A stretch of DNA of 64,000 nt from assembly GCA_036504445.1 (NCBI GenBank), contig DASXVE010000020.1, forward strand, positions 1 through 64,000, in the 5' to 3' direction. Under the pieces are notes generated by a model, which had not been told where the DNA came from, searched no databases, and saw nothing but the letters and a program-made list of their open reading frames with translations. Shown here piece after piece: positions 12,694 through 14,650 of this stretch. This DNA comes from Candidatus Aquicultor sp. (GTDB lineage: Bacteria > Actinomycetota > Aquicultoria > Aquicultorales > Aquicultoraceae). The position numbers were made by a program, and so were the translations under genes. Every line of letters starts with the position of its first letter. Position 1 is the first letter of the stretch.

Positions 12694-13794
12694 ATGGTTA
12701 AAACGGCTAAAACAAAAGTGGTATGTGCTATGAGCGGTGGTGTCGACAGCTCTGTCGCCGCCGCGCTTCTTGTAGAGGCCGGCTACGACGTAATCGGCAT
12801 TACGATGAATATCTGGCCCTCGGCAAAGACCGAGGAAGAGGCCGAGCGCTTCGGCGGTTGTTGTTCGCTCTCCGCGACCGACGATGCAAAGCGCGTAGCG
12901 TATACACTGGGTATTCCGCACTACACCTTTGATTTCCGCGAAATTTTCAAGCAAGAAGTCATCGAAGACTTCGTAACCGAGTACCAGCGCGGGCGCACAC
13001 CGAACCCCTGTATTCGCTGCAACCAGTATGTAAAATTTCAAGCGCTACTTCATAAGGCAAGGGCAATCGGCGCAGAGTATATTGCGACCGGGCACTACGC
13101 GTGGGTTGAGCACAGTGAAGAGCGCGGCCGTTACCTGCTGAAAAAAGGCATCGATGAGAGTAAAGACCAGTCCTACGTGCTCTACGTGCTCACGCAGGAG
13201 CAGCTATCGCACACAATGTTTCCGGTCGGTCATATTACAAAAGAGGAGACCAGGCGCCGGGCTACTGAGCTTGGGCTCACGGTAGCTCAGAAGAAAGAAA
13301 GCCAGGAGATATGTTTCGTTCCCGATAAAAACTACCCAAGATTTGTCACCGAGTATACACCGGGCGCTGATCGCCCGGGGCCGATTTACGACATGCAGGG
13401 CAACGTACTCGGCACGCACAACGGCATTATTCACTATACAATAGGGCAGCGCAAAGGGCTTGGGATATCGGCACCGCAGCCGCTTTATGTAATTGCGATA
13501 CAAGAGGAAGAGGATGCAATTATCGTCGGCACTAAAGATCACCTTTTGAAAAGCAGCCTTGTTGCCCGTGACATTAATTTGATCTCGATCGGCCGGCTTG
13601 CCGGGCCGATGCGTGTGAAAGCAAAAATTCGCTACAAATCGCCGGAAGCGCCGGCTACAATCACTCCGCTACCGAACGACGAGCTTCATGTTGAATTCGA
13701 TTACCCGGAATCCGCAATATCACCCGGTCAGGCTGTCGTATTTTACGACGGTGATGTCGTGGTCGGTGGCGGCACTATCGACCGCTCGGTTTAG
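12694..13794 (+). CDS. mnmA: tRNA 2-thiouridylase MnmA
   Basis: Thiolates U34 of tRNA-Lys, Glu and Gln with sulfur passed from the desulfurase. The 366 residues carry the PP-loop SGGVDSSVAAALL (14-26), the catalytic cysteine region NPCIRCN (C106, C109), DQSYVLYVL, and C207 in SQEICFVPD. Last gene of the sulfur operon. Its 3' end overlaps the convergent DUF5714 gene by 20 bases, so no terminator is visible between them. Confidence 0.96.
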   Translation: MVKTAKTKVVCAMSGGVDSSVAAALLVEAGYDVIGITMNIWPSAKTEEEAERFGGCCSLSATDDAKRVAYTLGIPHYTFDFREIFKQEVIEDFVTEYQRGRTPNPCIRCNQYVKFQALLHKARAIGAEYIATGHYAWVEHSEERGRYLLKKGIDESKDQSYVLYVLTQEQLSHTMFPVGHITKEETRRRATELGLTVAQKKESQEICFVPDKNYPRFVTEYTPGADRPGPIYDMQGNVLGTHNGIIHYTIGQRKGLGISAPQPLYVIAIQEEEDAIIVGTKDHLLKSSLVARDINLISIGRLAGPMRVKAKIRYKSPEAPATITPLPNDELHVEFDYPESAISPGQAVVFYDGDVVVGGGTIDRSV

Positions 13795-14554
13795 AGAACG
13801 GGCACGCAGCTCCTAAGCATTTATATGGATTTCGCTTCTGGTGCTGGCATTTTGTGATGGTTCGCGGCAGGGAAAGCCCCATATGTTCCTTGATGGCGTC
13901 ACAGGCACTCTCGATTGCAAGACGCGTGCTTAATTTGCAGCACGTCCCCATATATGAAGCTATTTTTGCCGTAGCCGCGTTTGTGGTTTGCATTGCGATC
14001 TGGCGTTCTCTTCCCTTAGGTTTATCACACGTAGCATCGGTAAGCAGGCTCATAACCACACCGGCCGCCAGGGCGGCGCCGCACGCGCCGTAATTAGCGC
14101 ACATGCACGACGGAACTCTATCCGTCCAGGTACGATCAAGAGCGCGCTCTATGAGATCATCGTTAATGATAAGTTCTTGATCGTTATACGACACGGGACC
14201 CGCGCTTTTTAGCGCTGCGGTTAGCGACATTGCCACTATAGCGTGATGCTCGCCGCCGATCATCGGCACCGAGGGATGGCTCATCATCTGCTCGGCAATC
14301 TGTATCGGGTCGTTAAGCTTAGTCGTTATGGCGATTGTGGTGATCGCATGAAGCGCATCCTGACCGTGGCAGGCATCGCAGACGAAATGATTATTTACGC
14401 ATGAAATCGTTCCCGCGGATGCTTGACCACAGAAATAGCAAGTAAGTAGCTCCGGCCTAGCCCGGTATATAAGTTTTTCACCGCATACCATGCAGTTTTC
14501 AGTATACCTGGTGGTAGCTCAACATCCGTTGCCAGAGTGCAGAATTTCCGACAT
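13775..14554 (-). CDS. DUF5714 family protein, candidate selenoprotein (in-frame TGA read as Sec)
   Basis: A frame of 260 codons starts at ATG 14554 on the minus strand, six bases after a strong AAGGAGT site. Codon 12 is TGA (14519-14521), and the frame then continues open to TAG at 13775-13777. The N-terminus reads MSEILHSGNGC, then the TGA, then ATTRYTENCMVCGEKLIY. The ENCMVCG part already matches the start of the DUF5714 fold, so family homology begins upstream of the only alternative start (ATG 14491), which has no ribosome site. Downstream are many conserved Cys (CYFCGQ, CDACH, CMCANYGACGAA, CCKLSTR, CLGAACPF) and the GGEHH motif. A hairpin placed like a bacterial SECIS follows the TGA. 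The biochemical role is unknown; DUF5714 is sometimes called methyltransferase-like. Confidence 0.7.
14480..14496 (-). promoter_or_regulatory. SECIS-like hairpin downstream of the in-frame TGA
   Basis: In mRNA sense the segment reads ACTGCAT-GGT-ATGCGGT. It makes a seven-base-pair stem with one U-G pair and a GGU apical loop. The loop begins 29 bases after the TGA. Bacterial SECIS elements usually lie within the coding sequence just after UGA, with a guanosine in a small apical loop at about this distance. Whether SelB binds it is untested. Confidence 0.5.
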
Positions 14555-14650
14555 GTGATAACTCCTTATGTAAGGGAACGGCCACTCGTGCTCTTAACCT
14601 ACAACAATGGCCCTACTTCCAAGCTATATGTTCGTATCCTACCTGTCAAT

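Follow-up and report, generated by a model that had tools for sequence, protein, structure and literature searches.

The window analysed here, a stretch of 64,000 nucleotides from a Candidatus Aquicultor sp. genome, contains on its minus strand a DUF5714 gene with a single TGA codon in its reading frame (Table 1). With TGA translated as U, the frame from ATG 14554 remains open past this codon to a TAG stop codon at 13777-13775, and the product begins MSEILHSGNGCUATTRYTENCMVCGEKL. A preliminary description of the locus had placed AAGGAGT ahead of this ATG, TGA at codon 12, a frame running on to 13775 and a 7-bp stem with a GGU loop 29 bases after the TGA. The ribosome site and the stem were both found at the expected positions, the TGA is read directly from the sequence, and the frame is uninterrupted, encoding 259 residues if TGA specifies selenocysteine (Sec). 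Automatic ORF calling begins the gene at ATG 14491. At its 3' end the gene overlaps by 20 nt (13775-13794) the 3' end of a convergent neighbor that we take to be mnmA-like, a name read from its sequence. The two genes are adjacent and convergent in two further genomes as well (G007 and G004).

Table 1. Features of the seleno-DUF5714 locus, in coordinates of the window
Feature	Position	Strand	Basis or remark
Shine-Dalgarno-like AAGGAGT	14561..14567	minus	Sequence; 6 nt ahead of the start codon
Seleno-DUF5714 gene	13775..14554	minus	Begins at ATG, ends at TAG; Sec at UGA codon 12; 259 residues
N-terminal arm MSEILHSGNGC, codons 1-11	14522..14554	minus	Retained in orthologues; disordered in the model
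In-frame TGA, codon 12, read as Sec12 beside Cys11	14519..14521	minus	Sequence; same codon in L018-L021
SECIS-like hairpin ACTGCAT-GGT-ATGCGGT	14480..14496	minus	7 bp, GGU loop; codon identity in five orthologues
Alternative start ATG (Met22)	14489..14491	minus	Judged a non-start: no ribosome site, loses Cys21
Double zinc-ribbon-like region C21 C24 C39 C42 C52 H56 C59 C62	14369..14494	minus	Alignment
DUF5714 helical domain, H103, C158, C205-C206, C236, C246, C251	13796..14344	minus	Pfam, conservation, AlphaFold2 model
mnmA-like gene (tRNA 2-thiouridylase)	12694..13794	plus	ORF list; convergent neighbor, context only

The Pfam profile PF18978 (DUF5714) matches residues 71-253 of the product (E 3.3e-40, 137.9 bits compared with a gathering score of 26.2). 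It had been proposed that the residues directly following the TGA already belong to the DUF5714 fold. This is correct only in part, because the profile starts at residue 71, but all eight Cys and His residues of the preceding double zinc-ribbon-like region are invariant among 21 aligned homologues, and this region probably binds zinc. In an AlphaFold2 model of the window protein (pLDDT 84, pTM 0.81), the zinc-ribbon-like part towards the N terminus is predicted with confidence and is followed by a helical domain; residues 1-18, which include the arm, are disordered (pLDDT <50). A search of the PDB by sequence identified no relative, and a Foldseek search with the model likewise identified none (best E 0.58); the fold therefore provided no functional lead.

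The genome from which the window derives (G000) is a draft of 2.57 Mb in 34 contigs. A genome search for selA, selB, selC and selD had been suggested, and all four are present, in one locus within 5 kb on contig C25: the tRNA-Sec gene, which is selC (C25:100324-100415, 76.6 bits), selB (C25:100579-102468, 400 bits), selA (C25:102510-103880, 615 bits) and selD (C25:104126-105046, 374 bits). The selD gene carries an in-frame TGA of its own (KSGUAAKMGPGD). We considered a reassignment of TGA in the genetic code and ruled it out, because TGA is an ordinary stop codon that terminates 14 of the 44 large ORFs of the window.

An orthologue search covering 20 relatives identified four orthologues (L018-L021) with 64-71% identity over the full length of the protein, including the part preceding the TGA. 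Each of the four contains exactly one TGA, has a start codon and a purine-rich ribosome site just 5' of the TGA region, and encodes a protein as short as the window protein with its own stop. Including the window gene, the TGA is at codon 12 and is preceded by a Cys codon in 5/5 sequences, and the arms of the orthologues always end in Gly-x-Cys-Sec or Gly-Asp-Cys-Sec. N-terminally extended homologues have TGA beside Cys in this position, and not unrelated residues. Gene order is conserved as far as the fetched flanks extend (L038-L040 and L094, with gene names read from the sequences): PmbA/TldD-like genes or an M23-type peptidase are on one side, and mnmA, iscU, iscS, cysE and cysK are on the other. 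In L038 two extra genes precede mnmA, the same two genes follow in L040, and no peptidase is visible beside the DUF5714 gene of L039. We rejected the mnmA-iscU-iscS neighborhood as a functional context, as the genes are convergent; for the same reason, the neighborhood marks orthology and not an operon. The window gene is not part of an informative operon.

These comparisons bear on the possibility that the TGA arose as an error in sequencing or assembly, or that the gene is a pseudogene in decay. Nothing specific supports this beyond the draft state of the genome. The same codon-12 TGA in four independent orthologues from other genomes excludes an assembly error, and 13 further in-frame TGAs are present in paralogues and in Acetoanaerobium. 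Moreover, the sequence following the TGA is under purifying selection (dN 0.06-0.26 in comparisons of the window gene with the orthologues), with dS mostly not estimable because synonymous sites are saturated. We consider the chance of an error or a pseudogene to be negligible.

Alternatively, codons 1-11 could constitute a leader peptide ending at the UGA, which would act as a stop or as a selenium- or cysteine-sensing attenuator, with the protein itself starting by reinitiation at ATG 14491. This ATG is in frame 27 nt past the TGA and is the start chosen by automatic ORF calling, but it lacks a ribosome site, and a start at this position would remove Cys21, which is invariant in all 21 aligned homologues. 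Furthermore, the codons from the TGA to this ATG remain in frame and preserve a Y-x-E-N motif in the orthologues, and the much longer stretches between TGA and zinc ribbon in paralogues are likewise in frame and free of other stops, which a leader peptide does not explain. The complete Sec machinery of the genome also stands against a leader peptide, and there is only a slight chance that it accounts for the locus.

Bacterial SECIS elements are hairpins positioned shortly past the UGA, at a spacing of 16-37 nt, with a G in the first positions of the loop. The window hairpin agrees with this description (7 bp, a GGU loop, 29 nt from the TGA to the start of the loop; -5.9 kcal/mol), and its role in translation is predicted. 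By itself it is weak evidence: about 5% of dinucleotide shuffles of this single sequence contain an equally stable hairpin that follows the SECIS rules, so that the significance in the single sequence is marginal (p about 0.05), and an Rfam search over the hairpin at a relaxed threshold returned chance matches only, with no SECIS. Across the five orthologues, however, not one of the five successive informative codons in the hairpin region (for Glu, Asn, Cys, Cys and Gly) varies, whereas across the gene only 16 of 128 degenerate codons for invariant residues are identical in all five, which gives a hypergeometric estimate of 1.7e-5 for a stretch named in advance. Because the TGA and the hairpin codons are both shared by all five orthologues, we regard the hairpin as far more than a chance structure. 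The conservation is in part protein-driven, because the hairpin overlaps the codons of a CxxC motif. Paralogues encoding the same CMVCG motif do not retain a hairpin of the window type, and the codon freeze is therefore confined to genes that have the motif 29-35 nt past the UGA.

A different hairpin was observed in 12 paralogues; with the T of the TGA as the start of counting, it occupies nt 15-20/25-30. In this alignment 87.5% of cells can pair, the best of 190 placements (mean 40%), and covariation is 0.606 compared with 0.406 after shuffling, with 1 of 500 shuffles reaching 0.606 and slid versions at most 0.29; the 12 rows are related by descent, and these figures are not clean probabilities. 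In single sequences the significance of the paralogue hairpin is modest, and L022, L025, L026 and L031 show no such significance. Its weight as a putative SECIS element rests on the pattern across sequences and not on single sequences.

Taken together, the sel locus, the TGA of the orthologues and the conservation of the hairpin strongly support the proposal that residue 12 is Sec beside Cys11, and codon 12 of the window gene almost certainly encodes Sec.

Among NCBIfam models, the only convincing match of the window protein was to NF045648 (MbdU), with 174 bits compared with a cut-off of 600. MbdU has been catalogued as a metal-binding double selenoprotein with a CU motif and two Sec residues, credited to Haft & Tolstoy 2025 (PMC13188914 Table 1); the positions of its Sec residues were taken here from this review table and from the HMM. 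The match covers model positions 34-267 of 468, and its local alignment begins at residue 14 of the window protein, past the arm. The short arm peptides alone had no match in NCBIfam. The arm of the paralogue L022, by contrast, adds 15 bits to its NF045648 match and aligns its Cys with model position 8 and its Sec with position 9, so that the profile includes an N-terminal arm, and the Sec of L033 also falls at position 9. The DUF5714 regions of MbdU and the window protein are homologous, and we are highly confident that the two proteins are related.

It is then conceivable that the UGA encodes Sec but that the product is nothing other than MbdU, whole or in part, and hence already described, as the 174-bit match and the CU motif of MbdU could suggest. 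We consider this to be very unlikely. The score is far below the cut-off, and the 259-residue window protein, with one Sec, ends after DUF5714, whereas MbdU comprises 468 amino acids with a second Sec and a DUF2284 half (corresponding to model positions 284-467). The orthologues are equally short, end at their own stops and share a conserved neighborhood, and there are several distinct paralogous clades. No DUF2284 partner was seen encoded next to the window gene. Among the genomes searched for MbdU, 297 from the phylum of the window and 151 from that of L042, none had a gene scoring above the cut-off. We found no mention of DUF5714 in the literature searched. The preliminary description did not know DUF5714 as a selenoprotein family. 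This requires correction in that MbdU contains DUF5714, and a DUF5714 selenoprotein with an N-terminal Cys-Sec has very probably been catalogued in this larger form; the single-domain, single-Sec branch is distinct from MbdU and is new. The full reading, a 259-residue selenoprotein related to MbdU with one Sec in a Cys-Sec arm, is very likely to be correct.

In-frame TGAs near the start are a general property of DUF5714 genes in the genomes of this bacterial family, in which they occur in 17 of 18 full-length genes, with Cys beside the TGA in 16 of these 17. The order is C-U in the clade of the window gene and in L022/L023, and U-C in L029 and in a third clade; L027 has U without a neighboring Cys, and its start is uncertain. 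In the arms of L022, L023 and L029 the Sec position is fixed relative to a shared GExQ motif, with Cys to its left (GSCU) or right (SSUC). A second DUF5714 gene with an in-frame TGA is present in the window's own genome on contig C23:8149-9000 (L105; also L033 and L087), with the U-C order MNEERPNVVLAGGUCTDSGAGQH. A tree built without the arm resolves several distinct paralogous clades and implies that the Sec state changed three times or more; Sec was therefore lost or gained more than once.

Replacement of Sec by Cys in some homologues is the usual comparative proof of a selenoprotein, although it is not obligatory. Among the aligned homologues, none has an arm with Cys in place of Sec; instead, there are arm-less or Arg-Arg versions (L028, L041, L042, L047). 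Together with L078, these are members of the DUF5714 family without a Sec arm, and L028 has Arg-Arg in place of the Cys-Sec dyad. The Sec-less PF18978 proteins have the same zinc ribbon, helical domain and Cys pattern as the window protein, but no N-terminal Cys-Sec arm. In L028 and L047/L048, which lack an arm Sec, an in-frame TGA lies in a fused AhpD-like domain (CQPU, CAPU), as though these proteins obtained their selenol from a different source. Fusions of DUF5714 to an AhpD/carboxymuconolactone-decarboxylase-like domain were observed in L092 (G009:C52, 5428-6396, minus strand), L047 (G060) and L048 (G254). Their in-frame TGA, in CQPU or CAPU followed by xxYC, makes them candidate fusion selenoproteins.

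Beyond this bacterial family, the arm was not detected in any other family among 397 sampled genomes of the phylum. In a different phylum, in Acetoanaerobium noterae of the Clostridia (NZ_CP154629.1, L077:5923-6696, plus strand), we identified a single-domain DUF5714 ORF with the architecture of the window gene and a GGCUG arm (MIDKTSHVGGCUGPATETAGVQ...SENCLVC). The incomplete gene table lists no gene at this position.

We propose that SelA, SelB, SelD and tRNA-Sec would decode the UGA at codon 12 as Sec, with the GGU-loop hairpin 29 nt further on as the directing signal. The encoded protein would be a Cys-rich, probably zinc-binding DUF5714 protein with a disordered N-terminal arm ending in vicinal Cys11-Sec12. 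In mammalian thioredoxin reductase, a flexible C-terminal arm carries Gly-Cys-Sec-Gly. The likeness, adjacent Cys and Sec in a flexible arm at one terminus, extends to the Acetoanaerobium protein, which reads GCUG, but it is a resemblance only: the proteins are unrelated, the arms are at opposite termini, and the window protein has no FAD/NADPH domain. By analogy, the arm of the window protein may swing between a partner and the core. In one version it would hand reducing equivalents on to the cysteines clustered in the helical domain (C158, C205/C206, C236, C246, C251); in the other it would itself bind a metal or metalloid, as a soft and mobile ligand. We put forward this shuttle or ligand mechanism tentatively, as one possibility among others.

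Alternatively, the Sec arm could serve structure or regulation, for instance by tying synthesis to selenium status, and not act as a redox or metal device. This would fit the early UGA, a cheap way to make translation dependent on selenium, as well as the disorder of the arm and the family members that do without a Sec arm. The retention of Cys beside Sec in nearly all genes although its side varies points instead to dyad chemistry. Also against this alternative, L028 and L047/L048, which have no Sec in the arm, carry an in-frame TGA in the AhpD-like domain. We thus regard a purely structural or regulatory arm as unlikely.

Other bacterial selenoproteins with a CU motif include the MerB-like lyase SaoL, HgcA, KCU-star/DUF466 and the CopZ-family form 2 (PMC13188914 Table 1). 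They share the adjacent Cys-Sec with the window protein, and several act in organometal or metal chemistry. None of them is known to be homologous to DUF5714. A circumstantial lead to metalloid or methyl chemistry comes from relatives of the window protein. On a Paraclostridium plasmid a Sec-less DUF5714 gene adjoins arsM and a gene for an ArsR-type regulator, and on contigs of Bacteroidales and Chitinivibrionales Sec-less DUF5714 is fused to radical-SAM and methyltransferase regions. The L092 fusion gene lies downstream of a gene that appears to encode a uroporphyrinogen-decarboxylase-type methyltransferase; this assignment and those of the radical-SAM/methyltransferase fusions were read from sequence only. 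It is thus possible that the window protein functions in metalloid or methyl-transfer chemistry. More broadly, DUF5714 could be the core of a selenium-dependent metal or metalloid device of anaerobes that obtains its selenol from a Cys-Sec arm (CU or UC) or from a fused Sec domain (the AhpD-like CxPU domain, or DUF2284 in MbdU), the arm then being a new soft-metal or methyl-transfer device, but a proposal of this breadth is doubtful.

In conclusion, we report here a well-supported single-Sec branch that is to be added to the prokaryotic selenoproteome and that is not named by any curated model we found. Its host belongs to a lineage of Actinomycetota known from metagenome assemblies; the branch comprises several paralogous clades and extends to one member from another phylum. 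In standard ORF calling such genes begin past the UGA, which clips the Cys-Sec arm. The change of side of the Cys, together with the Sec in the fused AhpD-like domain, constitutes a natural experiment on the role of the dyad.
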